Shown one piece after another: positions 2,193 through 38,150 of a stretch of DNA of 64,000 bases. Every line of letters starts with the position of its first letter. The stretch's first letter is position 1. A program made the position numbers and the translations under genes. The notes under the pieces are model-generated. The model was not told the DNA's origin, did not search any database, and saw only the letters and a list, made by a program, of their open reading frames with translations. Origin of the DNA: Cephalotus follicularis (lineage: Eukaryota; Streptophyta; Magnoliopsida; Oxalidales; Cephalotaceae); the NCBI GenBank assembly GCA_001972305.1, contig BDDD01005049.1:1-64000 (forward strand), given 5' to 3'.

Positions 2193-2273
2193 CAGCCGAC
2201 TGTCACAGGGTAACAGTCGACTGTTTGGTGCATGTGAAGGCAGTCGACTGCCAGTTGAATCCAGTCGACTGGA
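2193..2273. repeat. GTCGAC dyad array in LTR K
   Basis: Four dyad cores lie at 2195 (GCCGAC), 2216, 2243 and 2264 (GTCGAC), spaced 21, 27 and 21 bp. The site at 2216 has arms giving a 14-bp perfect palindrome. The array lies about 260 bp upstream of the TATA-like site. Confidence 0.85.
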
Positions 2274-2523
2274 TTAGTCCAGGACAGATTTCTAGCATGT
2301 GCAAAAACAAGAATTACAGGGTGTGAGTGGCACATGCGTGTCACCACCTGCCAGAACATGCAAAATGGAATGCTTGCATGTTCTCTGCAGACCTACAACC
2401 TACAAATTGAAAAACAATGAGAGAAAGGTAAAGACAGGGATGCATGTGATGGAAAGAAAGGAGAGAAAAGTGAGTGCATGTGACTTAGAGAAGGAATCTG
2501 ACGAATTCAAAAGACTTTTGACC

Positions 2524-2532
2524 TTATATAAG
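2524..2532 (+). promoter_or_regulatory. Putative TATA box of LTR K
   Basis: TTATATAAG lies in a plausible position in the U3 part of a 1.5-kb plus-strand LTR. The assignment rests on sequence match and position only. Confidence 0.45.
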
Positions 2533-5131
2533 TTGATTGAATGGTGAGATGAGTGTTAGAAACACTGAGTGAAGAAAGGGATCATTGGAGCTTGCATTGG
2601 ATGATTTAGAGAGCTCAAAGGAGGACTTGGAAGCTTTAGACTCTTGGTAAGTTTCTAAACTCGAGCTCACTGCCATGTGTTGATAAAATAGCTAGGAGAA
2701 TGTGGAATATCTTCTGTTAATTTTAGGATTAACAACCTCTTGAATTGAAAAGGAAATTGGTAAATGGATCAAGTGGAAATGGTGACTATAACCTCCAGAG
2801 TGGATTGTAGTTGTTGTTAGTGTTAGGATATATGCTTATTGGTTCCTAAATGTAAATGCATCTTCTGTCAACACACTTAAAATCAATGAATCCGAGATTG
2901 AATAATAGTTGACATAGAGTTCAAAGGAAATTGTTAAATGGAAGTTACGACTTGGGGAAACTTGATGATTTAGCTACTGTTGGAATTGTAATTGTTGTAA
3001 GTAACAACTGAAACCTACTAGTACTAATGCATGTGACCATAAACATGCATACATAGATTGAACTTGCTGGATTGAAAGATTGTTGGTGAAAAAGGCTGGA
3101 AACTCAAAGAGAAAGATCAAACTCAATTGATCTTGGGATAGCGATTTGAGGTAGGGGTAATGATATGTTATGGAAGATATAGTATGCATATAGTGTATGT
3201 CTATTTTCTGCATGATTACATCTGTTGAAATCGATTGGAAATTGAACTTGAAGTGTTTGGAGATTGCCGCTGAAGCTTGGAGAGCTTCTATTGTCAATTT
3301 AAGGTTGTTATTTAATTTATGATGTATTGTATTGTATCGAACGGATCACATCCCGTGTTGTGTTGTTTTTCCTTTCATGTAAGGATAATTATTGGTTTTC
3401 CCGCACGTAGTATGGGATGCGTGCGGACGACTTGTATTTATTTTCCGGCTTATCGAATGCTTCCACAAATTTATTTATGAATTGTTGCTGGAATATTATT
3501 CATGCTTATTCTGATATCACCGCATATGCTTATCTAACGTGATTGGAAACAGCGGGGTGTGACACCAAAGCTGAAACATAATCCAAAGTCATAAATTGAA
3601 AGACATAATATTACTCAAATAGGGGTTCTAACATGACCATAAAATAACTAAGCATAAACGAGTCCATCTCCCAAGTGATCCTTATCATAGGTGACATCTC
3701 ACTCATCACACATTGCCCGGATACTGTCCCAGAATACCTGCCGCATGGAAACAAAAACGCGACTGAGCAAACCTCAGTACGGATATAGAATCATAAAACA
3801 TAAAATGATAATTCAAAAGATAAAAAATACCTGAACCTAGAAATATCATACGACACATGTATAAATTAATTATAAACAGTTCTACCAATTCAAAACCAAT
3901 ATCCAAATTTCAAAACGTAACAAATTTCAAAAACGATATCTGAAAGCAAAGTCTGATTTCAAAGCATAGTCTAAGTTTCAATGCAAATCAAAAATCCCAA
4001 AACGATATTCAAAACGATACTCAAAATCTTTTTAACATTGTCCGAGTCAAAAGGGGTTTCAAAACAAAACTTATCCGATTCCAATATCTCCTCAAAGAGA
4101 TCCAAAACATATAACAAAGACTTATCCGATTCCGAAATCTCATAATAGAGATCAGAAAGTACATATACATAAGTGCAAGGGGTTTCCAAGGCCCACATGC
4201 TCCGACGGAAATACGTGTACGGCACTACACAATCAATCCCCAAAATCCGAATCCTTAACTTATCCTAGGATCGACCCATACGCCTCTATCACATATATCG
4301 GATCCATAAATCCACCTCATGAATTTTATTCAAAACATAGAGAGACGCCGTAGACTAATCACACCGCTACGGAAGTGTCATGTCCCCGTTCCAGGCCTAC
4401 GACATGCCTATGGTACACCCCATAGGTGGGAAATATCTCTGTATATCCTTATCCAAAGTTAACATACATCCTAATGTGAAAGTCATGTTCGTTTAACATA
4501 CTTCGATAGTAGAAGTCATGTTCCTTATCAAAACCAAAATCCGTATACTTTCGTATGTGAAAATCATACTTAGTTTATAAAAACCGGTGATATTAAACTT
4601 TAGTAATAAAACAGATTTTATAACATATCCGAGGTTGTATAACATTTCATAAACATTGAAAGCCAAAACATAAAGTCAGAAAATATTCATTATCACAAAA
4701 ATATCTTACCGACTTTATTTATAAACATATCAAAATTCAGAGCATAACGAAATTCATAAAATCGTAGGAATTATATTCGTAAAACAAAACTGATTTTATT
4801 TCAGTAAAACCAAAGGAATAAGCCAAGAACGAAGAATCCGTACGTTATCCATACAGTAAAACTATCTTTTACTATAAAAACAGTAGGAGGGTATCAAGGA
4901 ACGAAAATCCGTACCTTAAGCGATCACAAAAATAACTTTACGAATTGACCAACAATTTCAAACTGTCCCTCATAGCACACAAATCTAAAAGATACAATAT
5001 CATTCATATAAAGATTCAACAATCACTTCCAAACATCAAACAACAATTTAATAGTGCTTAAAACAGACTCCAAATCATTAGACGAACAAACGAATTACAA
5101 AACTTAAAACCAGAAAATTCACTGGACAAAC

Positions 5132-5341
5132 CAGTCGACTGTATCAAGATCCAGTAGACTACTCATAGGGTGGCAGTCGACTACATAACATAGGCAGCCG
5201 ACTACTCAAACTGGGTTGAATCCAGTCGACTGTGACAGGGGTCCAGTCGACTGTGCAAGGCAAAACAGTCGACTGTTTCACAAGGCAGTCGACTACTCAA
5301 TGGCTAACAGTCGACTGTTTAATTGGACAGTCGATTGTTCT
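5132..5341. repeat. 21-bp-phased GTCGAC dyad array in the element A LTR
   Basis: Ten cores lie at 5134, 5154, 5176, 5197, 5225, 5246, 5268, 5288, 5310 and 5330. Nine intervals are 20, 22, 21, 28, 21, 22, 20, 22 and 20 bp. Most cores are GTCGAC, with single-base variants GTAGAC, GCCGAC and GTCGAT. Around 5268 the dyad extends to a 16-bp perfect palindrome with arms AAACA/TGTTT. Spacer bases are not conserved, so this is more like phased sites than an ordinary minisatellite. Confidence 0.92.
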
Positions 5342-5424
5342 GCTCGACAGAACAGCACACACAGCAGTTTTAATTCCAATTTTTCTGTTAAAACCGTTTT
5401 TCTACATTACCAGATGATTTTAAA

Positions 5425-5436
5425 CACTTATATAGG
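5425..5436 (-). promoter_or_regulatory. Putative TATA box of the element A LTR
   Basis: On the minus strand CCTATATAAGTG lies about 890 bp into the LTR. If used, the GTCGAC array would fall in the transcribed leader. A second candidate, TTATATGAA on the minus strand near 5005-5013, is conserved in the solo relative (about 43304) and would place the array upstream instead. The sequence alone does not decide between them. Confidence 0.35.
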
Positions 5437-6324
5437 TCTTATGTGACTTAACAGTTGCATTTAAACATCCAGAATCAAAAGTTCATGCAATTGGTGATCT
5501 TTCTTTAAAGAGAAGCAAGTTCCAATTCTTTATATGCATAACTATGTGATCAATTTTCTGTCAAACACTTATTATCATATTCAAAACCTGTTTGTATGAT
5601 TACAAGACACTTCCTGACTTTATAACAATCTCAGAACATCAGCAAAACGTGCATGGCAGGGAGTAAAACAAAACCAAAATACTAGCAGCCTTAATGAACA
5701 TGCAACTGGATAATATACAACGAAAACTCACTGCTAAGCCGTATTAACAGAGGAAAACCAACCTGATTTCGTGAAACAAAAAGGTACAAAACAGATTCCA
5801 AGCTTTGCAGATTCGGCCACCAGGCTCAACAAAGTCGTGAGGCATAAACAATGTGCAATTGTGCATATAAACAAAAAATATGAGGCAATTTTGGCTGGGA
5901 TAAGGAAAGATGAATCCAAAATCTGATAGAATAGGAGAAGAGGCACACAATTCGGGATTGAGGGGGAGAATTAAGGGAAGGAATCGGTTTTTGAGAGGGA
6001 GAGAGCAAGAGTACGGGAGAGGGAGGGAAGAAAACGTGCAAGAGAGGGAGAGAAATAGGAAATAAAATTTATTTGCCAAAATACAATATTTGTTCCTTTT
6101 AAAATCCTTTTTACCTTGTTTGTATTAAAAACTAATTTTGATCACTTAAAAATACCAACAACAATTATTACTTATTTATAATTACATTTTATCAATTATC
6201 CAAAAGGCAACATAATTGGTATTATAAAGCCCAAATAAAATTAAAATAGACCAACATAATAACAAAACAAAATAAAATCAAATAAAAATCCGAAAATAAG
6301 CACACGAACGAACGGGGTATTACA

Positions 6325-7048
6325 CGTTATGTATGATAGATGCGTATGAATCAATTCTAGTATAAGGCATACGTGTGGAGTTATGCAATATGTGATATGA
6401 TATAAGAATTGGCTTGTGTAGTGCCGTACACTTCAATTCTAATAGGCATGTGGAATTAGCGCCTCCCTTGCCATCTATATATTTGATATATGATATGTTG
6501 TGTGACTCAGTATGAATTTATGTTTTTGAAATATTTCGTATGTATTTTGGAAGTTATGAGTTTGACTTCAAAGAATGTTTAAACTGATTTACTGTTTAAG
6601 ATTTATGTTTCGAGATAACTTTTGGAAATCTTATTGTTTTTTTTAAATTATCGTTTACTGTTTTACATTCTTTATTCGTACTGAGGTTTGCTCAGCCGCG
6701 TTTTTGTTTTCATGCGGCAAGATATCAGGAGAAACAGAGGAAAGTGTGATTGAGAGATGACCACCATATGTTAAGGATCCTCTAGGAGTGTGATCCCTCT
6801 ATGTTTTCTGTTAGGGTTGGTCATGAACAATAAGTTGCTTTTGAGTTTATGTTTTTAATAATTGACCTTGAAACATATTTAAATTTTCAGAATATGTTAA
6901 GTTTTAAGTATGTTATCCAGATATGTTATTTTTTGACCGCCACATTTTAAGCTAATAAAGTTATGCTTATGTTCGTTTAAGTTATGTTATGCTATGTTAA
7001 GTTTTGTATTATGACCTGTGATGACTCCCACCGTTCGGGGGTGTTACA
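6325..7048 (+). repeat. LTR I, 3' part (plus strand), interrupted by element A
   Basis: It ends with GGGGGTGTTACA, the terminus used by A-type LTRs, but in the opposite orientation. The segment near 6678-6717 is complementary to about 3720-3775 in the LTR of A, confirming relatedness. No primer site follows 7048, so this is a solo or 3' LTR end. Element A inserted at 6325 and split it; the 5' part is outside the window. Confidence 0.75.
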
Positions 7049-7156
7049 CCAAATCTTTAATGTTTTGAGAACATGACTTGAACAAAATACTAATTGTCTT
7101 TTCTTTTCTTTTATATATGTTGATATTGCAATGGCACCAAACCCACTCGCTGGTAT
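7049..7156. other. Unassigned flank between LTR I and element C
   Basis: This is 108 bp of AT-rich sequence with a T-rich tract. I see no gene or element signature. It is the target DNA into which I and C inserted; its last five bases, GGTAT, would be the left duplication of C. Confidence 0.5.
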
Positions 7157-7812
7157 TGTCACACCCCGAACCATGAGAGAACCCCACGGCCCAACAAGTG
7201 GCAAGCCATCCATCAATCCATCCTTATAATTATAACATGATATCCAAAATATGCTATAATTTAGAACTTTAATACAGAAATAAGCATGTGGAAACAAGCA
7301 TTCAAAACCTTGCGTGGATAAAGCCAAATAATAATACATCACATTCCAAATATGTGTGTAGCACTGCCACAAGCCGGCAGGTCAATACAACTGAATACAT
7401 CAATTGTTATACATTCAAAGTCTCTCATAAGGTAGATAATAACAATGGCAACTGCCACTGGAAATCCTTCTCAACAACTTGTCCTATCTCGCTACGTAGC
7501 ATCCTCAGCGCTCGCCCCTAGATGTTGTGCCCATTTCGAGAATGGGTTAACCAAACACAATCAGGTAGGTAATACTATATACAATGAAGTGAGCAGATAT
7601 ATACAGATATATGCATGGCATGTGAAATGCTTGAATTCCAATTGTGGACAACGTCAGTACATCTGCCGTCTCTAAGCGGTAGCACACTGAACGAGTCCAA
7701 ATCACACAACTTACCATCCATACACCCTGAGTCTATAGTCATTCCTTAACAGTACCATGACCATACCCTGACCCTACCATAACCATGTGGGATCGAGATA
7801 ACACTGACAACA

Positions 7813-8100
7813 TTAACCTTCCTTTAATGCTAGTCCCCTTAGGTTCCAACCTTGAATTACTTAACCCTCCCTTAATGCTAGTCCCCTTAGGTTTCAACCT
7901 TTAATTACTTAACCCTCCCTTAATGCTAGTCACCTTAGGTTCTAGCCATTAATTGCTTAACCCTCCCTCCATGCTAGTCCCCTTAGGTTCCAGCCTTTAA
8001 TTACTTAATCCTCCATTAATGCTAGTCCCCTTAGGTTCCAGCCTTTAATTACTTAACCCTCCCTTAATGCTAGTCCCCTTCGGTTCTAGCCTTTAATTAA
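7813..8100. repeat. 48-bp tandem repeat, 6 copies
   Basis: The unit contains CTCCCTTAATGCTAGT and CCCCTTAGGTTCCAGCC. Six copies fill 288 bp with scattered substitutions. The other LTR of the same element has about eleven copies. Confidence 0.92.
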
Positions 8101-8485: not shown

Positions 8486-8757
8486 GCATCGACGGTTTGA
8501 AGTGCAAAGAGTTGCCGGTTTCGTTCAAGGCATCGACGGTTAAGGCATTACGCCTTAAGCATCGAGAAGTGCACAAAGCTTCAACCGTTTAGTAACACAA
8601 AAAGAGTCAATGCTTTAACCAAAAGTGTCTACGGTTTGTCCATTTTTCCTTAACCATCGATGAGTGAGCAAGGTGTCGACAGTTAATATACTAGGCAAAG
8701 TGTCAACGGTTAATGCTCAAGTGTCAACACTTTGAGCGGGTGTTGCCAGTCAACAGT
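8486..8757. repeat. Degenerate GTCGAC/ATCGAC array in the element C LTR
   Basis: Cores or near-cores occur at 8488, 8511, 8532, 8561, 8580, 8656, 8675, 8702, 8723, 8742 and 8749, many 19-23 bp apart. Arms are mostly of the GCRTCGACGGTT kind. This is weaker than the arrays in A or B, but the spacing rule is the same. Confidence 0.65.
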
Positions 8758-10249
8758 TAAGAACAATGTTGACGCTTTTGTTAATGCGTTGATGGTTCTG
8801 GACTTAGCAGCAAGTCCCCATACGGCTGTTTAACAGCCTAAAATCCACATAAATCCCTTAAAATCCCTTTAAAATTCAATCCAAAGGAAGCTATAAGCTC
8901 CAATGGTTGATTAGAACTCAAACCCAACCTTAAACCTGTCGTACCACATTTTTGTTGGACGACATTAAAGCGGTAAAGGCAATTAACGTATAAAAGAAGC
9001 TTATGCAAAAACCATAAAATTTTAAACTTTTCAAGGAACATCAGTTGCGAAAGCATTAAAATTCATAAGCTGTAAAACTCATAACGTGCATCCCATATTA
9101 CACACTACTTAATACAAATCCGTCATTGTTAATCGCCCACTAAACAGAGCGTGATCCCAGTACAATATTAAATCCATCGATAACACAACCATAAGTACAG
9201 TACATCAGAAATCCTTTAACAAACAGTTTATTACAACTTAGAGAGTAGAACCAAGAACAACAACAACATAACGACTTGTTCTTCGTCCATGCCAGTCCAA
9301 TCGGTCCACTGCATCAATCTGTAAAGTAGGGGGTTAGCCTTTGTCCTCACTCGGCTAAGTCATAAAAGTAGCTCGGGATCAACATTAGATGCATGTCATG
9401 TAATGTATGCATAAATGATGCAGTGCAGGAAATACCTGTTTATATATATATATGAGAAATATATATATATTTTAGCAGTACAGTAAAATAACAGTGGATA
9501 CATATATAAGAAAATATACGTATGCAAGAACAGTACAGTGGTGATCCGGCCAGGATCACATCCACAATCACAGTAATGTTCGAAAAGGACCAACAGGCAG
9601 TACAGTATGTCCATAAAGGACCACAACTGTCAGGCCGTATATGTAACGCCGCCAACTTCTGACCCCACGCTACACTCGCACTCTCGTCCCTACTTCAGGT
9701 AACCGAGCGAGGCAACAGTACAGTACAGTGAGTCACCCAGCCTACTCCTGGCCGCTAGGTCAACCCTACCACTAGCCAGCGCTGGCAGCCTCCGCCATGC
9801 AACCAGTGGCTCAAACACAACCACATAGCAATTCACAGAGCAAACAGTTGATTAAAAAGTAAATAGTGCAGTCAACGGTACAGTGGTGATCGATTAGATC
9901 AACAACAGGCAGTCCATTTTCAAATATTTCTGAAGTAATAAATATTTGGAATGTGCAATTTCAGTAGTAGTAATACCTTCAACAATTCAGTAGTCAAAAT
10001 CGTTTACCAGTTCGTTCGAAAATACGTTATTAACCAATACATAATTTCATACTCAAAATAGCATATTCAGAGTTCACATATGCATTTCTAAACATCACAA
10101 CTTTAGAAATCATAAATGATTTACAAACAGTAACCAAACAGGCAGTAAACAGTGTATATGCAATGCATACAAATGCTCTAATGCATCCTAAGCCAAATCG
10201 GGATCGTCGCGCTTCGTTTTAAGCAAGAGCGGACGAAACAATAGCTTAG

Positions 10250-10417
10250 CAGTCGGCTGGATTCTCCACCAGTCGGCTGTTCTGAGAATTTAGTATGTGA
10301 GTAGTTGACTGGTTTGTCCAACCAGTCTACTTGTTCATCAGGCAGTCGGCTGTTACTCTTCAACAATAGACTGTTTAGGTTGAGTAGTCGACAGTCTTCC
10401 TTCGACAGTCGACTGTT
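10250..10417. repeat. GTCGAC dyad array 1 in the B 3' LTR
   Basis: Cores lie at 10252, 10272, 10304, 10325, 10345, 10366, 10387 and 10408. Intervals are 20, 32, 21, 20, 21, 21 and 21 bp; 32 is close to three helical turns. Variants include GTCGGC, GTTGAC, GTCTAC and ATAGAC. Confidence 0.9.
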
Positions 10418-11228
10418 TTGGGAAGCAGTTGCATACAATCCAAAATACACCACTTAAGCAGATCATTGCAAGCATCCAAAATGTATTCTCAAGCTAGAAA
10501 ATTATCATTCAGTCTTCCACAGTCACATATATCACAACAGTAGCATGCATCTTATCCAGCAATCCAATACCAAGGCAAACTCAACATGCATGTACATAAG
10601 TTCAAAGATTCTCAACAGTAAACATGGCATGCGTAAAACCAGCAATAATCATGGTCATATCAACTGAGCATTGTGGCTTATACTAGCAGACAACCAATCG
10701 CATAACATGCAGTAATATTGAACTCCAAAACACAATCATAACTTCCCCTACCTTTTGATTCCAAGTTAGGAATATGTAAGTCCACCTCTTTGTGTTCCAA
10801 CAGCGACGTTTTGAGCTCCCCAGAAGCTCCAACTCTAGTCCAGTAGCTCGAATTTGCTCTTCCAAGCTTTCCTTCTTGGTTCCAAAGTTGGACAAGAAAA
10901 TAAACCAAACTCTCTCCCTCCTTTCTCCTTTCAATCCCACTATGTTTTCCTCTCTTGCATGCACTGGGTAAGAGAGGGACGGAAAGGAAGAGTGTTTTTA
11001 TGCCATCTCTTCTCCTAACCTGTTGCATGGCACTAAATGCCATTATTTCCCCTCCATCACTTGCATGCCTCCACACATGTCACTCCCACCCTTCCTATCA
11101 GTCTTTGCAGGTTCTAGCAGTCATGTGCATGACATACACATTTCATATATCATCAGATGGCGCCTGCAAGATGCTCCTGTCAGTGGCTGCATATGATCTC
11201 GTCACATGCAATAAAACAGAGCACAAAC

Positions 11229-11381
11229 TAGTCGGATGTCCACACCCAATAGCCGGTTGTTCGCCTGGCAATTCGTTGCCATGTGGCTCGACAGTTGGCC
11301 AGTCGACTGGTTCATCCCACCAGTCGACTACTCCCATACGCAGTCAACCAGTCGGCTGGTCTACTGTACCAGTCGACTGTT
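11229..11381. repeat. GTCGAC dyad array 2 in the B 3' LTR
   Basis: Cores or variants lie at 11231, 11252, 11275, 11294, 11302, 11323, 11343, 11351 and 11372. Intervals are 21, 23, 19, 8, 21, 20, 8 and 21 bp. The 8-bp doublet recurs in related LTR D at 50102/50110. The array lies 230-370 bp upstream, on the minus strand, of a TATA-like CATAAAAACAC near 10998. Confidence 0.85.
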
Positions 11382-11572
11382 CATAGTGTACTTACTAAGT
11401 AAGTTGTACTCACTAAGCAATCACACTTCTAAGTACTTAATTGATTTAAGAGAAACATCATCAGTGTTTGGGAAAACATCAGCATATTCGGAAAATCCAT
11501 CATTTTATTAATTCCACAATAAAGTACATTTACGTTCTGAAATTACAACACATGAAATTTCCGGGAGTTGCA

Positions 11573-11584
11573 TCCACCCCTCCT
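11573..11584 (-). other. Polypurine tract of element B
   Basis: The minus-strand purine-rich tract AAGGAGGGGTGGA directly precedes the LTR start TGCAACTCCC. Just upstream, GGGGACGAAATTCC is the conserved Tekay-type motif. Confidence 0.87.
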
Positions 11585-11619: not shown

Positions 11620-11760
11620 CTAGAACAAGTGCGGGTAGCGTTCTTGGATATCCTCCTCACACTCCCAAGTTGCTTCATCCGGTTGGTGAAACTGCCATTG
11701 AACCTTGACCATGGGGATGGCTCGGTTCCTCAAGATCTGCGTCTTCCAATCTAGAATCCG
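11620..11760 (-). pseudogene. Chromodomain at the C-terminus of element B integrase
   Basis: The last residues include AIPMVKVQW and [17 protein letters not shown], matching the chromovirus chromodomain. In this family the domain targets integration to heterochromatin by binding modified histone tails. The ending YPHLF is the usual Tekay end, and the stop lies 35 bp before the polypurine tract. The domain itself looks uninterrupted, but upstream stops prevent its synthesis as part of a full polyprotein. Confidence 0.86.
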
Positions 11761-12860
11761 TACAGGCAACTCTTCATAAGATTGGTCATCTTGTACCGGA
11801 ACAGTATCATAATCTAGGACATGTGACTGGTCCGGGATATATCTCCTCAGCATAAATATATGAAAGACGTCATGCACGTTTGACAGTGCAGGAGGTAAGG
11901 CAAGCTGGTAGGCTACCTCCCCAACTCTCTCCAAAATCTCGAAAGGACCAATGTAGCGAGGAGCTAATTTGCCCTTTTTCCCAAACCTTTGCACACCCTT
12001 CCATGGTGAGACCTTTAAGAACACATGATCTCCCACACTGAAGGTTAAAGGCCTCCTCTTGACACTGTCCGCATAGCTCTTCTGCTGGCTCTGAGCAGCA
12101 AGCAGCTTCTTTTTTATTGTTCTGATCTTTTCTGAAGTTTCCCTGACCTCATCCCAACATACAGGAGATCTGCACTTCCTCCCATACATTGCTTCAAACA
12201 GTGCCATACCGATACTGGAATGATAGCTGTTATTATAAGAGAACTCTATCAAGGGAATGTGATCCTCCCATGTACCAGCAAAATCGATAATGCAACCCCG
12301 TAGCATATCCTCCAAGGTCTAGATGGTACGCTCAGACTGCCCATCGGTCTGAGGGTGGAAGGCAGTACTCAGGTTTACCTTAGTCCCGAAAGCTGTCTGA
12401 AACCTCTTCCAGAAGTTGGAAGTGAAGATGGCATCTCTATCACATACGATGCTGACTGGAACACCATGTAGCCTCACTATCTCCCTCACATACAAACGAG
12501 CTAGCTTGCTCGCAGAATCAGTAACATGTGTAGGCAGAAAGTGCGCTGATTTGGTGAGTCTATCCACGACAACCCACACGACGTTGTGACGGTTTCGAGT
12601 CAGAGGAAAACCCAAAACAAAATCCATCGTAACATGTTCCCATTTCCACTCTGGAATTGGTAAAGGTTGTAGCATACCCGCCGTGTTTGGCCTTAACTGT
12701 CTAGCAAGTCAAACACCTCGCCACATACTCGGCGATCTCTCGTTTCATGCCAGGCCACCAGTAAGTCTTCTTCATATCTTGGTACATTTTAGTGCTACCC
12801 GGATGGATACTGTACAGAGATTTATGAGCCCCGCGGAGTAACTCATTCTTCAACCCTGGT
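11761..12860 (-). pseudogene. Integrase of element B
   Basis: This would insert the cDNA into the genome. The zinc-binding N-terminus is visible (HPGSTKMY, then CLTC), followed by a TAG stop at 12701 and a frameshift before 12675. The catalytic core has D in VTMDFV, D in VCDRDAIF and E in DGQSERT, so the triad is present. A TAG at 12316-12318 falls just after SERTI, where the family has glutamine. The rest, to about 11761, contains the [10 protein letters not shown] motif that leads into the chromodomain. Length and order are normal for a Tekay-like integrase, but the frame is broken at least three times. Confidence 0.9.
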
Positions 12861-13795
12861 TCATTTGGAAGACACACGCGTCCCCGATATCTCAGAATAC
12901 CATCTGCATGTACCCGAAAATCAGATTCGGAGTCCAGGTTCTCCCGAATCCGTTGCAGCTCCAGATCGTGTGGTTGTGCATCCCTGATGTGATCCAGTAA
13001 CACAGGCTGTACTCGCATGTCGGCCACAAAGATCCCCTGTGACTGATTGAATGGAGACCACTCTTGGAATTCCTCTAACATCTTCCATTGCGACACCATC
13101 GCACTGGCAACCATAGCCTTACGGCTCAAGGCATTAGCGACCACATTCACTTTCCCCGGGTGGTACTGAACACTGCAATCATAATCATTAAAGAATTCTA
13201 CCCACCTGCGCTGTCTCATATTCAGTGTGTACTGACAAAACAGGTACCTTAAACTCTTATGATCAGTAAAGATCTCAAACTGCGCCCCATAAAGATAGTG
13301 CCTCCACTTTTGAAGGGCAAAGATAATAGCTGCAAGTTCGAGGTCATGAGTCGGGTAGTTTTCTTCATACGGTTTTAGCTTCCTCGAGGCATATGCAATC
13401 ACTCTGCCTCGCTGCATCAATACACAGCCCAAACCCTTTCCTGATGCATCACTGTAGACTGCAAAGCCCTCATTACCATCAGGTAATGCTAGGACAGGAG
13501 CGGAAACTAAACGATCCTTCAGTTCACGGAAACTAGCTTCACAGTCTTCGTCCCAGACAAAAGGGGTCTTTTTCTGGGTCAGTCTAGTCAAGGGCTCAAC
13601 TATCCTTGAGAAGTTCTAGATGAACCTCATGTAATATTCCACCAATCCAAGGAAACTACGCACCTCCATCACGTTCTTTGGCTGTGGCCAGTCTCGTACC
13701 ACTTCAGTCTTTGACGGATCCACCGTCAAGGCTTCCCCAGATACAATGTGACCGAGAAAGATCACATGATCAATCCAAAACTCACACTTGCCAAA
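12861..13795 (-). pseudogene. RNase H of element B
   Basis: This removes RNA from RNA:DNA hybrids during cDNA synthesis. The acidic residues D in VYSDASG, E in DLELAA and D in FTDHKSL are present. The last conserved aspartate, normally in VADALSR, reads VVANALSR, so it is asparagine. A TAG near 13616 and the TAG at 13796 separate it from the reverse transcriptase. The linker between RT and RNase H is otherwise in frame. Confidence 0.88.
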
Positions 13796-14500
13796 CTAGG
13801 CGTACAACCGATGTTCTCTGAGAACTTGCAATACTAGCCTCAAATGATGAGCATGCTCCTCCTCACTCCTCAAATATACCAGTATGTCATCAACAAATAC
13901 CATGACAAACTGGTCCAGGTATGGTCGGAATACGTCATTTATCAATGACATAAAAGCTGCCGGTGCAGGGGTAACACCGAACGGCATCACCAAGAACTCG
14001 TAATGACCATACCGTTTCAGGAAGGCAGTCTTCACAATGTCTCCTTCCTTTACTCTCAGTTTGTGATAACCTGACTTCAAGTCGAGCTTGGAAAACACCC
14101 TCGATCCTTGCAACTGGTCAAACAACTCAATGTGGGATAAAGGATACTTGTTCTTGATAGTTGCCTTGTTCAACATTCTGTAGTCGATGCAGAGCCTCAT
14201 CGACCCATCCTTCTTCTTGACAAACAGTACAGGCGCACCCCACGGAGAAACACTAGGTCGAATAAAACCCTTATCGATCAGATCTTGCAACTGCAATTTC
14301 AGTTCCCTCAATTCTGCAGGGGCCATCCTATATGGTGCTTTAGAAATAGGAGCTGTACCTAGTATAAGATCGATAACAAACTCCATATTTCTCTTCGGTG
14401 GCAAAGATCCCAAGTCATCAGGAAATACATCTGGAAATTCACACACAACTGGAATTTCCTCGAAGCTCAAGCCCTTCTCTTTCCTTCGATCAATCACGTA
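13796..14500 (-). pseudogene. Reverse transcriptase of element B
   Basis: The RT copies the packaged RNA into cDNA. Visible blocks in order are [62 protein letters not shown] and FVDDILVY. The catalytic FVDD is intact. The segment ends at a TAG at 13796, where the family continues. It lies in the same frame as the protease, separated by a TAG at 14525. Sequence and motif style place it in the Tekay/Del group. Confidence 0.92.
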
Positions 14501-14524
14501 GGCCAGATATCCCTCGCATCCCTT

Positions 14525-14956
14525 CTATAGGTATCTCGATGCTCGAATATAGGATATGATCAGTGTTGAGAACCCTTTATCTCCCTTGAACTGAAAAGTC
14601 GTTCCGTCGGGCAAACAAAAATCCACAGTTTTATTATAGCAGTCCATACGAGCACGGTGTGCTGATAGCCAATCCATCCCCAATATAACATTGAAGTCAT
14701 GGATAGGCAGCACTATCAAATCTGCATACAAAGGAATGCCTGCCATAGACATCTCACAACTCCTATATATCGAATCAGTATACATAGAAGACCCGGTCGG
14801 TGTACTCATATCAAGTATGTATGGCATGCAGTCAGGGGTGACATCTAGGCAAGATACAAAACGTGCAGATATAAAAGAATGCGATGCTCCGGAATCCATC
14901 AATACTCTAGCAGAAAAACCATATATGTACAGAGTACCTCCAACAACAGAAGTCGA
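14525..14956 (-). pseudogene. Aspartic protease of element B
   Basis: This retropepsin would cleave the Gag-Pol polyprotein. The catalytic motif is DSGASHSFIS, followed about 75 residues later by VILGMDWL, the second family hallmark. A TAG at 14957 separates it from gag, and another at 14525 separates it from the reverse transcriptase; all are in one frame. The domain is complete in length. Confidence 0.9.
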
Positions 14957-16236: not shown

Positions 16237-16248
16237 GCTCTGAAACCA
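16237..16248 (-). other. Primer-binding site of element B
   Basis: The minus strand reads TGGTTTCAGAGC, one base away from the common tRNA-iMet site TGGTATCAGAGC. It lies four bases from the LTR end at 16253. Confidence 0.87.
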
Positions 16249-16252
16249 CTGC

Positions 16253-18167
16253 TGTCACACCCCGTTTTTGTTGGACGACATTAAAGCGGTAAAGGCAATT
16301 AACGTATAAAAGCAGCTTATGCAAAAACCATAAAATTTTGAACTTTTCAAGGAACATCAGTTGCGGAAGCATTAAAATTCATAAGCTGTAAAACTCATAA
16401 CGTGCATCCCATACTACACGCTACTTAATACAAATCCGTTATTGTTAATCGCCCACTAAACGGAGCGTGATCCTAGTACAATATTAAATCCATCGATAAC
16501 ACAACCATAAGTATAGTACATCAGAAATCCTTTAACAAACAGTTTATTGCAACTTAGAGAGTAGAACCAAGAACAACAACAACATAACGACTTGTTCTTC
16601 GTCCATGCCAGTCCAACCGGTCCACTGCATCAATCTGTAAAGTAGGGGGTTAGCCTTTGTCCTCACTCGGCTAAGTCATAAAAGTAGCTCAGGATCAACA
16701 TTAGATGCATGTCATGTAATGTATGCATAAATGATGCAGTGCAGGAAATACTAGTTTATATATATATATGAGAAATATATATATATATTTTAGCAGTACA
16801 GTAAAATAACAGTGGATACATATATAAGAAAATATACGTATGCAAGAACAGTACAGTGGTGATCCGGCCAGGATCACATCCACAATCACAGTAATGTCCG
16901 AAAAGGACCAACAGGCAGTACAGTATGTCCATAAAGGACCATAACAGTCAGGTAGTATATGTAACACCGCCAACTCCTGGCCCCACGCTACACTCCCACT
17001 CCGGTCCCTACTTCAGGAAACCGAGCGAGGCAACAATACAGTACAGTGAGTCACCCAGCCAACTCCTGACCCCTAGGTCAACCCTACCACTAGCCGGCGC
17101 TGGCAGCCTCCGCCATGCAACCAGTGGCTCAAACACAACCACATAGCAATTCACAGAGCAAACAGTGGATTAAACAGTAAACAGTGCAGTCAACGGTACA
17201 GTGGTGATCGATTAGATCAACAACAGGCAGTCCATTTTCAAATATTTCTGAAGTAATAAATGTTTGGAATGTGCAATTTCAGTAGTAGTAATACCTTGAA
17301 CAATTCAGTAGTGAAAATCGTTTACCAGTTCGTTCAAAAATACGTTATTAACCAACACATATTTTCATACTCAAAATAGCATATTCTGAGTTCACATATG
17401 CATTTCTAAACATCACAACTTTAGAAATCATAAACGATTTACAAACAGTAACCAAACAGGCAGTAAACAGTGTATATGCAATGCATACAAATGCTCTAAT
17501 GCATCCTAAGAAAAATCGGGATCGTCGCGCTTCGTTTTAAGCAAGAGCAGACCAAACAGTAGCTTGGCAGTCAGCTGGATTCTCCACCAGTCGGTTGTTC
17601 TGAGAATTTAGTACGTGAGTAGTCGACTGGTTCGTCCTACCAGTCTACTTGTTCATATGGCAGTCGGCTGTTACTCTTCAACAGTCGACTGTTTAGGTTG
17701 AGTAGTCGACTGTATTCCTTGGACAGTTGACTGTTCTGGGAAGCAGTTGCATACAATCTGAAATACACCACTTAAGCAGATCATTGCAAGCATCCAAAAT
17801 GTATTCTCAGGGCAGAAAATTATCATTCAGTCTTCCACAGTCACATATAGCACAACAGCAGCATGCATCTTATCCAGCAATCCAATACCAAGGCAAACTC
17901 AACATGCATGTACATAAGTTCAAAGATTCTCAACAGTAAACATGGCATGCGTAAAACCAGCAACAATCATGGTCATATCAACTGAGCATCGTGGCTTATA
18001 CTAGCAGACAACAATTCGCATAACATGCAGTAATATTGAACTCCAAAACGCAATCATAACTTCCCCTACCTTTTGATTCCAAGTTAGGAATCTGTAAGTC
18101 CACCTCTTTGTGTTGCAACAACGACGTTTTGAGCTCCCTAGAAGCTCCAACTCCAGTCCAGTAGCTC
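16253..18167 (-). repeat. Element B 5' LTR, truncated (1915 bp)
   Basis: It starts TGTCACACCCCG next to the primer site and follows the left LTR closely until the shared ...CCAGTAGCTC at 18167. After that the sequence is unrelated to B and belongs to the LTR of C. About 720 bp of this LTR, including its promoter and the second GTCGAC array, are missing. Confidence 0.88.
17568..17735. repeat. GTCGAC dyad array in the B 5' LTR
   Basis: Cores lie at 17570, 17590, 17622, 17643, 17663, 17684, 17705 and 17726, with intervals 20, 32, 21, 20, 21, 21 and 21 bp. Spacing is identical to the partner array at 10250-10417, while several cores differ between the two, for example GTCGAC here against ATAGAC there. 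Confidence 0.9.
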
Positions 18168-23792: not shown

Positions 23793-24318
23793 TTAACCTT
23801 CCTTTAATACTGGTCCCCTTAGGTTCCAGCCTTTAATTACTTCCCTCCCTTAATTCGAGTCACCTTAGGTTCCAGCCTTTAAGTACTTAACCCTCCCTTA
23901 ATGCTAGTCCCCTTAGGTTCCACCCTTTAATTACTTAACCCTCGCTTAATGCTAGACCCCTTAGGTTCCAAACTTTAATTACTTAACCCTCCCTTAATGC
24001 TAGTCCCCTTAGGTTCCAATCATTAATTACTTAACCCTCCCTTAATGCTAGTCCCCTTAAGTTACAGCCTTTAATTATTTAACCCTCCCTTAATGCTAGT
24101 CCCCTTAGGTTCCAGCCTTTAATTACTTAGCACTCCCTTAATTTTAGTCCCCTTAGGTTTCAACCTTTAATTACTTAACCCTCCCTTAATGCTAGTACCC
24201 TTATGTTCCAATCTTTAATTACTTAACCCTCCCTTAATAATAGTCCCCTTAGGTTCCAGCCTCTAATTACTTAACCCACCCTTAATGCTATTCCCCTTAG
24301 GTTCTAGCCTTTAATTAC
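23793..24318. repeat. 48-bp tandem repeat, about 11 copies
   Basis: It has the same unit as 7813-8100, with about eleven copies counted by the recurring CTTAGGTTCCAGCC block. The copy number difference between the two LTRs arose after insertion of C. Confidence 0.92.
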
Positions 24319-24724
24319 TTAAATGGTTCGATAGGTCAAATCCACTATGCAGTGTCTCTTCGTAGGATCACCCCTAAAGTGGTTCCTATAGGTCCATACC
24401 AACAAAATCCACAACCTTACAACCCTTTTTATACTCTTTTTGCAATGCTACTCCTCAAAGGTTCTATCCCCTAATGACGTTCCTTTAGGTCAACCATACC
24501 CTGCCATATCCCTATCAAAGTTCGTAAACCATTTATGGAAAACCTGATTGAAATCCATTGAAGATAGATTGTGTAACTCCATCATGTTTAAAATTAGGTT
24601 TTGATAGGTTACACGGCCTTAAGGGGGCTTCCTATGGATCCCATTTGAGTGTAGAAAAAACTGGGGTTGAGAACCATTTCATTTTGTCCCAGACGGGGCA
24701 AAATGTCAACTATTTGCTGCTAGG

Positions 24725-25035: not shown

Positions 25036-26645
25036 TGATGGAATCGAATAAACCGACTCCGGTGCCAAAATGGACATAGGGTGTAAGAGTGCAGAATAAA
25101 ATTTTTAACAACCAATCATGCAGTGGAAGAACACCCAATATAACTAAAACAAGTCCATAAAGGCACATCCACAGATCCCATGGATCACCACAACATCAAC
25201 AGAATTGAAATGGTGTCACCATTGCATTCAATGGTGACACACAAACATGGCAAGAAGAAGAGGGGCCAAAGTTTATACCAGTGGGTGAAGGCTCCTTCTT
25301 TCTTTGCCGCTACAAGCTTGAGTAGATTCCCTTTGATCTTCTCCAAGCCTCAGGAACAGCAAGCAATCCTTCCAGCAAACACCAAGAGCTAGAACTCAGT
25401 CACTCTCTCACTTAGCTTAGAAAAAGAGTATTGATTATGACCAATGAAGTCAGTAATCAATCCACCCTAGATAAGCCTTGCTTGGTGTATATCAAAAAAA
25501 GGGAACACACACTTGCAGAGAAGAATTCGTAGTCCAATTCCCAGCAAAAGTGTCTCAACTCTAACTCTTTTTTCATTTTTGCAGAAATGCTTAATATCAG
25601 CCACTAATCCTCTCTCCCAATTTCCCATTTACTCAGAATGATGGCCTTCATTCCCTTGGAGTCCGAAGCCATGATTCCCATGTTTCTAAAAATGTGCAAG
25701 AACGGGAGCTGGATGCTGGAAACGAGGGAGAGATCGTGCCCACGATTTGAGCTTGTGCACAGGTTGCACGTTCTGCTCAAAGACGTCGATGCCTTCCAAA
25801 TGACGTCGACGTCTATGCATCGTGGCACTAAAGCAAATCGATACTTTCTAAAAGACATCGACGTCTTTATCAGGGATACGCATCGATGTCTTTCTAAAAG
25901 ACGTCGACGCATTCTGGCTAGTGAAGCACAAAGAGTCTAACTCCATTAGTATTTTCATGTCCCTTCGAATATTGGTTAAGTAAGATCAAACATAAGTGTT
26001 TTCACAAAATGTAAGATCCATACAACCGATATTTGACACCAAGACTTAATATGTCTAACATATTAAAAACCTAGTCATTATAAGGCAGGGACCCTTTAAA
26101 ATCTTGGTTATCCGAGAGGTGTTCATAAATTACCGAAATACCCCTCGGGTCTGGTTTAGCCATTCTAAATGGTCCTCGACCAATTTAAATGCTATTGGAA
26201 TAATATCCAATATTATCCAGATGGAAAAAATTAATCTAATTAATTTTCCCAAAACCTCAATAACCACAGATTTTCTAAGTTGTCGGTTCACGTGCACTAT
26301 AATTCCTTGTCATACTTGGCCCCGATTGAGGTCTAGGGTAAGGAAATGTGTCAACCCTAGATAGTACCTCAATGGCTAAAATATCTGATCATTACTAGGA
26401 CCTTTGGTAAACTCTCTGGAAATCCAATTTCCAGTCTACCTCAACCTTTGCCAAGGATTTCATATGTCCAAAGTATAATCAAACAATAATAGGGCCGATC
26501 ACCTTCGCTCATGTGTGACAATCCCTTATTGCCCACTCACTTATATTCGTATAGATTCGATCATACCCAAAGACCACCCGATTGCCAGCCCTGCGCAAGG
26601 ACTGGGTAAGGTGGAGATCAAAGCATAACATCACTATATCTAACA
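25036..26645 (-). mobile_element. Solo LTR F2b (1610 bp, Copia type)
   Basis: It is bounded by exact GAGAG copies at 25031-25035 and 26646-26650. On the minus strand it runs TGTTAGATATAG... to ...CCATCA. It aligns, inverted, with the full F2 LTR at 33313-35449 but lacks an internal stretch matching about 33327-33885, a deletion of roughly 560 bp. The region around 25780-25912 holds its GTCGAC-type array. Confidence 0.9.
25783..25912. repeat. GTCGAC dyad array in F2b
   Basis: Cores lie at 25785, 25805, 25856, 25882 and 25903. The arms here are GACGTC/GACGTC, giving a 12-bp perfect palindrome at 25802-25813. Flanking text resembles TCTTTCTAAAAGAC. Confidence 0.78.
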
Positions 26646-26960: not shown

Positions 26961-28367
26961 TGTTCACGAATTTTGAATGTTTTAAATTTATACCGCAAGT
27001 GCACGGTTGTGCAGTAATGGGTCAAACGCTAGGAAACAAGCTAAATTAATTATAATCTATTCAACCTAGGTGAAGTATGCAAAATTGGAGTAATATTAAA
27101 CTAACAGAAATAACACATGAAAAATTATGCATTAATCAATCAAGAAATAAACTGAATAAAATATGCAAGAGAAAATCGACTTTAGGGTATAGAAACTCAC
27201 CATAGATTATATTGAACAACTCACTTACTTGATTAAGCAGACCTTGGTAACCAACAGCAGGTAGGTCAATACGGAGTACGACTGTGATAAAAAATCGTAT
27301 GAGTAGTCATGCTAGGTCTATATTGAGGGTGGCAACGACGAAAAATCGTATGAGTAGACATGCTATGTCTATACGAAGTGTGTTCGGCGTGACAAACCAT
27401 ATGAGTAGACTCCATTGATTGCATTGAAAACCATCCATTAATCAATATTCTTATTCATCGACACGATGTTTGTGGATATTAATCAGACAAACAAAGTGTG
27501 TGTGAAGGTAGAAAATTGAGAACAAATCAAAACTTCAAGGATTTTTATTGATGGAGTTGAATTAATAAAATCTAGGCTTTGTTCTAACCCTAAAAACCTT
27601 AAGAGTTTAGCTACAAAACATTGTAATAAAGACTAAAAATTGAAGAAGAAGAAGAAAGGTGGCTACAAAGCATTTCACTAGCTTGTACACATTGTTATGG
27701 TTGGCCTTATAATGTATTTATAGTTACAAAATTGCTAAAAAATGAAAAGAAAATAACCTAGTTACAAAACTAGCAAAAAATCTGAACTTTCCAATTTTCC
27801 TACTATTCGTAAGCGTTGATGCTTACGTCTTGGGTGTCGACGGTTTGTGCTTTGCATTGACGCTTTGATGTTGTGACGTGAATGTATACCACACTTTAGG
27901 TGCGAAGCGTTGATGGATTGAGTCTGAGCGTAGACGGTTTAGTACAAAAGGTTTTAGGCATTACTCAAAGGCTCTAAGCGTCGACGCTATTGTGAATCCA
28001 TCAGCGCCTTATAGCTAAGCGTCAACGCTTAAAGTCAAGGCATCAACGCTTAATGTGTATAATCAGATTATGAACCTTCTGTTCCAAAGTGCTTCAATTC
28101 TCCTCCTAACCGCCGGCGTTTTGTATATAAGCGTCGATGCTTATCCTCTAGGCGTCGACGCTTTGCCCTCTTTTCTACAGAAAAAATGTCAATCTTCAAG
28201 CTTTAATCTTTTTATCTTCAATTTGCACCAATTTGAATAGTATTTATGCACTTTAATCTTCTTGGCCTTATACCTGAAAATCAACACACAATAACCAAAG
28301 TTGTCTATTCTAAGCATAAAAATATCACAAATAAATCATCAAAAACAACACATTTTTATGCTAAACA
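26961..28367 (-). repeat. Athila-like 3' LTR (1407 bp)
   Basis: It runs from TGTTCACGAA to ATGCTAAACA and aligns with 33001-33312 plus 35455-36575. A TATA-like TATAAATA on the minus strand near 27715-27722 lies 100-440 bp downstream of the GTCGAC array. Confidence 0.9.
27812..28160. repeat. GTCGAC dyad array in the Athila-like 3' LTR
   Basis: Cores or variants lie at about 27815, 27836, 27856, 27909, 27930, 27958, 27979, 28000, 28021, 28042, 28112, 28133 and 28154. Most neighbours are 20-21 bp apart. Typical arms are AGCGTC/GACGCT, giving a 12-bp perfect palindrome at about 27979. Confidence 0.88.
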
Positions 28368-30509: not shown

Positions 30510-30812
30510 TCAAAGCATTTCTCGTGGCCAAGAATGGTCTACCAAGGATAACTGGGATTTGATCGTTATATTCGTAACAGGTTGGGTATCTAATATGACA
30601 AATTCGACGGGAAAGAAAAACTCACCAACCTTGATTAAAACATCCTCAATTTTCCCTTTCGGTACTTTCACTGACCTATCAGCTAATTGCAAAGTCATCG
30701 TGGTCGGGCGCAACTCTCCTAAACCATGTTGCTCAAAAACTGAAGAAGGCAACAAATTCACTCTTGCTCCTAAATCCAGCAAAGCATGTTCAAATTTGGT
30801 ATTCTGAATCAC
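30510..30812 (-). pseudogene. Aspartic protease remnant of the Athila-like element
   Basis: The order is ALLDLGARVNLLPSSVF, then ADRSVKVPKGKIEDVLIKVGEFFFPVEFVIL. This matches Athila/Tat retropepsin, whose catalytic motif is normally D-L/S-G-A with NLMP or NLLP. Here the motif is DLGARVNLLP, which suits the family. The upstream join to gag is broken. Confidence 0.78.
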
Positions 30813-30899
30813 ACAAGAGATTGTCGGGTAGCCAGGATCTTTGTACTTTGGAACCTTGGGTTACGAAATAATCTTAGTGGTATTGGCTGCCAAGAAAGC

Positions 30900-36012: not shown

Positions 36013-36370
36013 TAGTCGTAAACGTCGACACTTACGTCTTGGGAATCGACGGTTTGTGCTTTGCATTGATGCTATGATGTTGTGACGTGAATGTGTACCA
36101 CGCTTTAGGTGTTAACCATCGATGGATTGAGTCTGAGCTTCGATGGTTTAGTACATAAGGTTTTAGGCGTCACTCAAAGGCTCTAAGCGTCGACGCTATT
36201 GTGAATCCGTCAGCGCCTTATAGCTAAGCGTCAACTCTTAAAGTCTTGGCATCGACGCTTAATGTGTATAATCAGATTATGAACCTTCTGTTCCAAAGCG
36301 CTTCAATTCTGCTCCTAACCGTCGGCGTTTTGTATATAAGTACCGAAGCTTATCCTCTGGGCATCGATGC
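36013..36370. repeat. GTCGAC dyad array in the Athila-like 5' LTR
   Basis: Partner of 27812-28160. It has the same order of cores with independent substitutions, for example GTCGAC at 36024 and ATCGAC at 36045. Spacing of 20-21 bp is kept over most of the block. Confidence 0.85.
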
Positions 36371-37043: not shown

Positions 37044-38150
37044 AAATTTGTGAAAGAATAATGTTGGGTTTATGGCCATTTTAGGTGTTAGGTGTATAGG
37101 GTGTTCAACTTTAATTTTCATCAAAGTTGGCTCCAAGCCTATGAACATCCTATAATCTAAATCCATAAATGATCACAACCATCCTAAGATCGCTAATCAA
37201 CTGCCCAATTAAACAAAACAATAATCAAACATACAATACAAGTCATTGCTATGCCCAGTAAAACGCTGACTTGCATATAGAGAAAGTTAGAGATTATACG
37301 AAACAACCAATCTCCTTCCATCAAGAATCAAATCTAAAACTTAAAGCTTTAACACAGCAACAAATCAGCAAAGACCAGCCATTCCAATTCATATATGTCT
37401 AATCCTAGCCTAGGATCAATATAGGAAGTATAAAGCTTTGTGCAAAGCAACACACCACCTATAGAAATCAAGGAGTGGTGTTAAGGATAATGGTATAACT
37501 TTTCTCTTCTCTTTGTTTTTAGTTTCACAATTATTCTCCCAGAAAACCAAGCAAGTTCAATGCACTCTCTTCTGCAAAAACGTTTTTCTACTGTTCTCCG
37601 AGAACATTACCAGTGTTTTTCAATCACATACTTATCCAACCCACAAAGACGGTATATATAATTAATCCATAAACACAAAACGTGTTATTGGATTTTGAAT
37701 TCCCTGAATTCAGTTCCTTTCCATTCTTGTTCCATGACAAATAGCTAGTGGATAAAAGAAAATGTGTAATATGGATTTAATTCCCTGAATCAAATCCTGT
37801 TTCCTTTTCTTGATGCATGACGTACTACTTCCCTTAATAAGAGGATGTGTTTTGTCCATGCATGTAACCAGTAAGGAGTGAGAGAGAGATAAGAAGATAA
37901 TAATCCAATTAATACTTGATACCATAATCCTTCTTGTGACACTCCACTTAAGAGTGGGTAAGAGGAAAAGGCTATCCATGAGATGAAGCCACCAAGAGGA
38001 AGGACTGTCCATGAGGTGGAGCCGCCCTTGTGACAGGAATGAACCAGATCCATAAAAAAGGGGGAAAAGTATGGCTGTGCTATATTAGAAATGATCGTTG
38101 AACCTAATTACATGAGGCGCATTTTGATGGATTGAATGGGGAGTTAGTGG

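Follow-up and report, generated by a model that had tools for sequence, protein, structure and literature searches.

Same-direction arrays of GYCGAC-cored sites in LTR retrotransposons of Cephalotus follicularis as candidate protein-binding regions

The window, by which we mean the whole stretch of 64,000 nucleotides analysed here (bases 1-64000 of contig 5049, in an assembly of 1,577,397,061 bases, 1.58 Gb, and 9746 contigs), is plant DNA filled with nested LTR retrotransposons. Its focal feature is a row of ten AGTCGACT-like sites at 5133-5336, seven exact and three with one mismatch, which bears out an initial annotation of ten GTCGAC-centred cores at 5132-5341. That annotation also counted nine intervals of 20-22 bp and one of 28; the successive gaps are 20, 22, 21, 28, 21, 22, 20, 22 and 20 bp, so the single 28 stands and only eight of the nine intervals are 20-22 bp. 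The lone C-type site of the array reads AGCCGACT on the plus strand, which is antisense for the host element, E1. Altogether 18 places had been proposed to follow one rule, and they fall into two classes. Class A, CAGYCGACTG around AGTCGACT, accounts for eight of the 18 (2193, 5132, 10250, 11229, 17568, 43448, 49044 and 50037) and lies in chromovirus LTRs. Class B, longer dyads around CGTCGACG of the types AAAGACGTCGAYGTCTTT, AAGCGTCGACGCTT and TAGGCGTTGACGCCTA, accounts for nine (8486, 25783, 27812, 34572, 36013, 36765, 50950, 54385 and 55897), in chromovirus, Copia and unclassified repeats. The last place, 24725, is a single core with no pair. The features are as follows, with a strand where one was assigned.

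2194-2270, plus strand: class A array of four sites (21-27-21), cluster III; its homologue in the L071 3' LTR is plus-sense
5133-5336, minus strand: class A array of ten sites, in an LTR of element E1 (E1 sense minus)
8626-8773, minus strand: class B-like array, cores mostly GTCAAC, in or beside an LTR of chromovirus O
8937-11576, minus strand: 3' LTR of chromovirus T1, with PPT AAGGAGGGG, then TGGATGCAACTCCCGG ... GGTACGACA
10251-10414, minus strand: class A array A2 of eight sites (up to two mismatches), T1 3' LTR
11230-11385, minus strand: class A array A1, with a 21-28-21 module at 11301-11378, T1 3' LTR
11620-14956, minus strand: T1 protease, reverse transcriptase, RNase H, integrase and chromodomain ORFs (Pfam)
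16237-16248, minus strand: T1 primer binding site (by sequence)
17569-17732, minus strand: class A array A2, T1 5' LTR (the second LTR copy)
about 21550-18350: chromovirus-type Gypsy pol of O
25784-25909: class B array of AAAGACGTCGAYGTCTTT-type dyads (motif scan)
27814-28048: class B-like array, AAGCGTCGACGCTT-type, with a TATA-like box 90 bp away on the minus strand
30513-30860: unclassified protease
34575-34699: class B array, inverted relative of that at 25784 (alignment)
36117-36257: class B-like array, relative of that at 27814 (alignment)
41120-40872: Copia RT piece
43439-43631, minus strand: class A array (up to two mismatches) in E1', which aligns with the 5133 LTR at 71%
46152-45352: Copia-type gag-pre-integrase and integrase pieces
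49045-49236, minus strand: class A array A2 (up to two mismatches) in T2, a diverged T1 relative
50038-50186, minus strand: class A array A1 with a 21-28-21 module, T2
50953-51144: class B-like array, adjacent to a probable Copia element with repeat copies R and S
54454-54557: class B-like array, unclassified repeat
55899-56236: class B-like array, TAGGCGTTGACGCCTA-type, unclassified repeat
60999-61724: Gypsy gag

T1 has the Gypsy PR-RT-RH-INT order and the C-terminal chromodomain that mark a chromovirus: its Pfam matches to RVP_2, RVT_1, RT_RNaseH, H2C2 and SH3_Tf2-1 exceed the cut-offs, and that to Chromo falls below (21.9 vs 25.1 bits). We take LTRs of the T1 type to be Tekay-like, and its primer binding site to be one mismatch from the initiator-Met tRNA complement. 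Array A1 of T1 lies about 190-350 bp past the PPT; a T1 linker array outside the LTR is ruled out by the PPT and the LTR start at 11576. Besides one T-type site, the A1 array of T2 holds four of C-type that all point the same way. In the 5' LTR copy of T1 (16252-18167) the match ends at 18167, while the 3' LTR runs on to 11576. The 120 RT matches listed are 57-72% identical; two plant-type chromovirus RTs (P0022, P0056) are filed under a cyanobacterium and Staphylococcus aureus, probably contaminated bacterial records. As to the hosts first suggested (Tekay-like and Athila-like Gypsy, and Copia), chromovirus-type Gypsy and Copia pol were found, and searches of a general kind, none of them Athila-specific, showed no Athila.

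E1 has a relative in L074. Its LTR starts (1-330 vs 5995-6324) are 98.5% identical, with a clear minus-strand PPT beside 330; to judge from its sequence, E1 looks like a fairly young insertion. A single 4.5-kb E1 LTR running from 6324 to 1808 was considered and dropped because cluster III is plus-sense in L071. The array at 2194-2270 most likely lies in a plus-sense LTR with a putative beginning at 1808 (TGTAACACCCC), and the window's Copia element, with repeat copies R (about 37051-39898) and S (about 51261-53153), is probably the owner of the class B row at 50953-51144. Several repeats add to the nesting. A 48-bp unit occurs in six copies at 7813-8099 and in 11 at 23793-24322, related copies that are probably chromovirus O LTRs, and its number has thus changed between them. 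The element from 58038 carries 25-bp units (TAGCGGGCAAGGCCTGGATAGATAC-like) at 59063-59287 and 63369-63698, which suggests another motif class. The repeats 25036-26629/35449-33877 and 27269-28367/35451-36575 have opposite relative arrangements and meet at 35449/35451, and make up a rearranged or nested element pair.

When GTCGAC with up to one mismatch was sought within 340 bp from each of the 18 places, 15 had at least one pair at 20-22 bp and three (24725, 27812 and 36765) had none, although 27812 shows gaps of 20-21 bp once two mismatches to CGTCGACG are allowed. The idea of a single motif for all families gives way to two classes, and six of the seven array-bearing chromovirus LTRs are without a site of the other class. 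The LTRs had been described as otherwise unalignable, which is only partly so: five listed pairs align at 69-95.3%, namely 10250/17568 (two copies of one LTR, 95.3%), 5132/43448 (71%), 11229/50037 (69%), 25783/34572 (84%) and 27812/36013 (87%), and segments adjoining 36765 and 50950 align at 91%. Since many of the LTRs are interrelated, the 18 places represent fewer families. The spacing rule is common to LTR families that do not align outside their arrays. By their site-masked flanks, 34 distinct class A arrays from the window, the sample and 30 fetched loci form six clusters and three singles. The sample comprises 20 stretches of 10 kb (200,000 bases, 12,837 of them N) chosen without regard to the motif, and the 30 short loci (L040-L069) are motif-selected and all from contig C1; what was read in detail is therefore 264 kb plus these loci, of a single genome.

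In the window, AGTCGACT with up to one mismatch forms 29 pairs at 20-22 bp, a peak that 60 dinucleotide shuffles of the 64 kb in 2-kb blocks do not reproduce (mean 0.02, maximum 1). For CGTCGACG with up to two mismatches, the unmasked window has 34 pairs at 20-22 bp vs 0.43 in shuffles, and 25 remain after masking the eight class A arrays. The 20-22 bp peak is also present in the 20 sample stretches. Among the 31 exact AGTCGACT pairs 12-42 bp apart in window and sample, 17 are at 20-22 bp, 6 at 27-28 and the other 8 at 41-42, with no other spacing. A survey of palindromic octamers in the same 264 kb (one N-run row left out) gave 205 kinds, of which AGTCGACT (63) and CGTCGACG (36) are the commonest and the only ones with pairs at 19-22 bp, (TA)n aside in both respects. 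The peak proposed at the outset extends to the whole assembly, where AGTCGACT pairs 19-22 bp apart number 108,824 against 341 for a reversed-pattern control, and those 12-42 bp apart 153,145 against 452. Of the 100 matches listed at 12-42 bp, classified by eye, 78 are at 19-22 bp, 11 at 27-28, 9 at 41-42 and the remaining two at 13 and 33. The 21-bp site arrays are real and genome-wide.

After the gaps near 21 bp, neighbours most often stand 27-29 bp apart. This wider gap has a set position (21-28-21) and does not correspond to an integral number of helical turns, which speaks against the suggestion that the sites are bound on one DNA face. Nor does the phase of gaps longer than 23 bp support a one-face arrangement (mean about -0.24 turn at 10.5 bp, R 0.54, n=11). 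Searched elsewhere, the triple-site pattern gave no match in viral contigs and 39 stretches in prokaryote genome contigs; of the eight inspected, most consist of a unit of about 19-22 bp repeated in tandem almost perfectly, and several keep an open reading frame. In two loci from gut Bacteroidales MAG contigs (L010, L028), copies of GAGTCGACTC follow one another at about 20-23 bp and the spacers between them vary, which sets these rows apart from the near-perfect tandem repeats that make up most of the other prokaryote matches inspected.

Because AGCCGACT is asymmetric, the direction of a site can be read from it. Within 36 arrays, some of them near copies, 211 asymmetric site pairs point in the same direction and none in opposite directions. 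Genome-wide, same-direction AGCCGACT pairs at 19-22 bp number 26,005 + 26,388 = 52,393 (controls 143 and 116) and convergent pairs 712 (control 0), where random orientation would make convergent pairs about half as many as same-direction ones. The sites had been taken for simple dyads; their AGCCGACT variant is in fact oriented. Neighbouring arrays share their direction in T1, T2 and L072, as do those of L080 and L088, for which a common LTR is not established. With respect to transcription the arrays are sense in T and III/V and antisense in E1, which rules out a fixed orientation of that kind.

Under this orientation lies a two-fold symmetry. Around 215 oriented class A sites, taken from 30 arrays with a majority orientation, bases are avoided symmetrically over 14 bp: T occurs at -2 in 3%, A at +9 in 3%, C at -3 in 1% and G at +10 in 6%. 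This is the avoidance that a dimer would give, and the sequences are to that extent in keeping with the dimer binding first suggested. Left and right flanks show no covariation beyond the array consensus at 17 of 18 positions, class A flank 7 being the exception (p = 0.01); covariation within sites in an early test of 43 GTCGAC sites reflects the two classes and was set aside. Class A is a near-dyad with one tolerant half, and that half is identical throughout an array. On the AGCCGACT strand the spacers consist largely of purines (0.58-0.81, depending on the family), and they have no clear positional consensus between families (p 0.045-0.635 for six family pairs, 21-bp gaps only).

We compared the divergence of the sites with that of their surroundings in two settings. 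Between lineages (ten pairs, some sharing members, in BLAST-trimmed aligned stretches), class A sites differ at 50/520 positions (9.6%) and the remainder at 1493/6853 (21.8%). Between LTR copies of one element (six pairs, after one pair from different elements was left out), sites differ at 18/424 (4.2%) and the remainder at 209/6976 (3.0%; p = 0.15), the sites decaying faster than the remainder in three pairs (T1, L067/L068 and L071) and not in the other three. The LTR-pair status of L040/L045, L057/L059, L061/L065, L067/L068 and L071 is deduced here from distance and identity, without target-site duplications. The contrast between the settings is significant (Fisher p = 0.0023; 0.012 with five lineage pairs picked to cut shared members). 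Trimming had shrunk it, unalignable flank having inflated the remainder in the untrimmed lineage count (66/537 vs 2757/7513). These pair counts choose sites by motif likeness in either row, which favours conservation; that does not apply to a cross-row comparison in which sites are defined in one row and scored between other rows. There, in five clusters (cluster VI, with two members, gives no figures), identity is 0.77-0.96 in sites, 0.55-0.74 in spacers and 0.53-0.70 in flanks, in agreement with the original remark that spacers are not conserved. Sites that are kept in propagating lineages and not after insertion are selected, and on this comparison class A sites are selected while their elements are active. 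The proposal of a cis-acting module is likewise supported, given that the sites are kept between lineages as spacers and flanks drift.

The substitutions themselves are informative. At orthologous class A sites 70 of 123 instances are exact. The substitutions there total 65; T>C at position 3, the change that yields AGCCGACT, makes up 31 of them when the two strands are folded, as against 15 CpG C>T and a single A>G at position 1. This imbalance indicates specific tolerance of one variant. CpG decay of one ancestor was rejected as a source of class A, its main variant being T>C and not C>T. Class B variants (ATCGAC/GTCGAT, GTCAAC/GTTGAC) are those expected from CpG decay of CGTCGACG, with no clear direction (22 same vs 13 opposite; 9 vs 8). 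A reading of class B as RYCGAC (CRT/DRE) was accordingly dropped, since CpG decay suffices and the variants have no clear orientation.

The arrays occupy recurrent positions in their LTRs. Class A arrays lie about 205-350 bp and 1.2-1.44 kb past the integrase/chromodomain end in T1, L072 and L057, and class B arrays about 220-370 bp and 1.15-1.4 kb past it in L083 and L085 (the latter with one A site too, at 1.9 kb). L071 shows the first slot (in 1.4 kb of sequence), L074 the second, and L082 two scattered B sites only; A offsets beside element O belong to the adjacent inserted T1 LTR and not to O. A tree of the integrase/chromodomain end protein stretch of nine sequences groups T1 + L072 + L083 (99/99) and L085 + L071 + L057 (97/98). 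Both supported clades hold A- and B-bearing members, and both classes therefore occur within each clade. T1 and L072 are alignable throughout the LTR (0.66-0.77). For T1 and L083 the alignment covers the LTR start (0.68) and the part past the second array (0.73); between about 110 bp and the end of the second array they are at background (0.40-0.47) save for pieces of 59 bp (80%) and 23 bp. L057 and L085 agree at the LTR start (0.79) and not beyond it (0.29-0.54), so that their slots match by position alone. A block exchange, or rapid turnover of the U3 block, that leaves the slots in place would fit these alignments; an in-place change of every site would be less simple. Beside the class I and T A2 arrays no conserved TATA box was found, which leaves their U3 position partly a matter of deduction, and one TATA-like site is conserved downstream of cluster III. 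A piece of 56-59 bp between two arrays (10743-10800, 49574-49629 and L083:6781-6838) is 80-82% alike where the LTRs around it no longer align, and is perhaps a core promoter element.

Taken together, these observations lead us to favour, at a probability of about 0.62, the reading that the arrays are multi-site protein-binding arrays in LTR control regions, serving a sequence-specific DNA-binding protein whose specificity would be exchangeable. Such a protein would recognise a site of 10-14 bp, CAGYCGACTG, in the form of a complex with exact or approximate two-fold symmetry. Rows of as many as about ten sites spaced ~21 bp apart would load it at high density, and dense loading would set LTR activity, through transcriptional activation or escape from silencing. 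The evidence is at sequence level: the arrays, their spacing, selection, orientation, fixed slots and the second class in relatives' slots. From it we infer that a protein reads the sites at the DNA level, as well as which way the effect goes and which protein is involved. Among host proteins, an AP2/ERF factor of CBF/DREB type would suit class A best. PLACE, as quoted in a passage of PMC9138379, lists GTCGAC (CRTDREHVCBF2), RYCGAC (CBFHV) and RCCGAC as CRT/DRE cores. Class A conforms to the RYCGAC/RCCGAC core (G 0.99, T 0.57 or C 0.43, C 0.94, G 0.96, A 0.97, C 0.98), partly by construction, as the 215 sites were picked with at most one mismatch to AGTCGACT; orthologous sites yield the same main variant. 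Because the tolerated GTCGAC and GCCGAC are listed CRT/DRE cores, as is RYCGAC, AP2/DREB is the best single host candidate for class A. Against it, a monomer leaves the 14-bp symmetry and class B unexplained, and a tomato LTR with a CBF site had no cold response according to the part of PMC6762207 that deals with it. CRT/DRE sites are also, to our knowledge, without ~21-bp oriented arrays of 14-bp two-fold symmetry. Tnt1, ONSEN and Rider offer a broader parallel, with stress-responsive U3 boxes that are host-factor sites in LTRs, like the arrays here, and Tnt1 U3 blocks differ between close subfamilies. We know of no such boxes that are as many per LTR or common to different superfamilies.

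Common descent with tandem duplication is unlikely as a full account, though it survives best among the alternatives. On this explanation an ancestral LTR gained head-to-tail duplicates of a 21-bp unit, the arrays are functionless, decaying relics, and their single orientation is merely that of the unit. Orientation is indeed constant within arrays and in the neighbouring arrays of T1, T2 and L072, several arrays are homologous, and spacers are slightly more alike within an array (0.34) than between arrays (0.30), with 0.23 against the reverse complement. In relics, however, one would not expect sites that diverge between lineages less than half as much as what surrounds them and then decay normally after insertion, and spacers of different families share a purine-rich composition but no clear positional consensus. 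Duplication may still be the source of array growth and orientation.

A second alternative, which strikes us as rather improbable, resembles the VANC system: a protein encoded by the transposon or domesticated by the host would bind same-direction arrays and lift silencing, and co-evolution would lead to class switches. VANC proteins (DUF1985/DUF287) are encoded by the element family whose arrays they bind, and DNA methylation is lost when they bind. In the portion of PMC5735166 consulted, the targets of VANC21 and VANC6 are short motifs, of C- and T-type, that stand in noncoding parts of TEs in arrays with a single direction and evolve jointly; the motifs differ between related TEs and recur in an unrelated one. 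The arrays described here share with them, by analogy, the dense packing of many motifs in one orientation in noncoding TE DNA, the C- and T-type variants, the fast joint turnover, the different motifs of relatives and the sharing between unrelated TEs. The likeness drawn here is one of arrangement, the VANC motifs being YAGTATTAY and AGTTGTCC. What weighs against it is that VANDALs are DNA transposons carrying their own VANC gene (PMC5735166), whereas these arrays are in LTR retrotransposons and their reader is putative.

Highly improbable is the third alternative, that the palindromes pair as hairpins or cruciforms, for RNA packaging or dimerisation or, as proposed for maize Sirevirus palindromes, for small-RNA silencing. 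The minus strand of 5125-5345 does fold far better than its shuffles (z -6.98, 0/200), 10240-10420 folds moderately better (z -3.14, 1/200), and clustered Sirevirus palindromes attract small RNAs (Bousios 2016, as cited in a passage of PMC10760457); yet any row of palindromes folds well, and these are two arrays. The commonest variant breaks the palindrome, two same-direction AGCCGACU mispair at 2/8 positions, and the convergent AGCCGACT...AGTCGGCT that could pair number 712 vs 52,393 same-direction pairs. With convergent pairs so rare and flank covariation absent at 17/18 positions, structure is unlikely to be what is kept. Coding repeats were ruled out, as the steps of 28 and 20-22 bp break any frame and all listed class A arrays lie outside ORFs with Pfam hits.

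Returning to the protein-binding reading, the initial annotation knew of no name for such a module; the nearest described one is the Sirevirus repeated motif (RM). In the sections of PMC2829016 (Bousios et al. 2010) consulted, RMs are short palindromic sites that form clusters, mainly in the upper LTR half, with at least eight copies in an element and as many as 32, and with family-specific arms on a shared core. RMs are described as lying upstream of a conserved TATA box and their clusters as forming CpG islands; they are reported as Sirevirus-specific, 12 of 13 have a CGG-CCG core, the Vitis RM CGGTCGACCG contains GTCGAC, and the Tnd-1 RM ACAATCGATTGT is TCGA-centred. Copy number is comparable here, with ten sites in the 5133 array and, in the T1 LTR, two arrays of at least 4 and 7 sites (up to one mismatch). 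The locus L070 has a Copia pol (RVT_2) with a dyad row about 130 bp past the pol end, and L076 has dyad rows in sequences with a recognisable start. We take the RT letters of L070 to be Sirevirus-like and these sequences of L076 to begin with the Sirevirus PPT/LTR signature. These elements carry dyads like the published RMs (AAAGCG..CGCTTT in L076, TAAGCGCCGACGGTTG in L070), and the rows agree with those parts of PMC2829016. In L076, the two arms of an inverted repeat at 2198-7342, about 2.4 kb each, match at 94.6% and have dyad rows at their outer ends; they are apparently two Sirevirus LTR pieces head to head. The arrays differ from the RMs of PMC2829016, as described in those parts, in their hosts, since T1, L071, L074, L083 and L085 are chromovirus-type Gypsy elements and not Sireviruses (Copia), and in their core, which is GYCGAC in class A or CGTCGACG in class B and not CGG-CCG. 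Class A, which sits in chromovirus LTRs, is also oriented, and its 21-bp spacing rule is broken recurrently by a 28-bp gap; in relatives, class B takes its place in the slots.

One could go further and read all of this jointly, as an interchangeable binding code in chromoviruses, Copia elements and Sireviruses, with two slots per LTR that each hold a single class and are refilled wholesale as the reader changes, in a VANC-like arms race with anti-silencing or activator readers; we regard this as speculative and improbable. An architecture earlier deemed a Sirevirus speciality has a counterpart in Gypsy chromoviruses, and the close site pairs of this one assembly exceed 100,000; the literature matches listed, with mostly open-access coverage, included no report of such arrays in chromovirus LTRs. 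The selected sites, the hidden orientation and the two classes in relatives' LTR slots make function testable. If one host factor reads the arrays, many element families and adjacent genes would be tied to one signal; if the reader is instead an anti-silencing protein encoded by the element or the host, VANC-type systems would extend to LTR retrotransposons.
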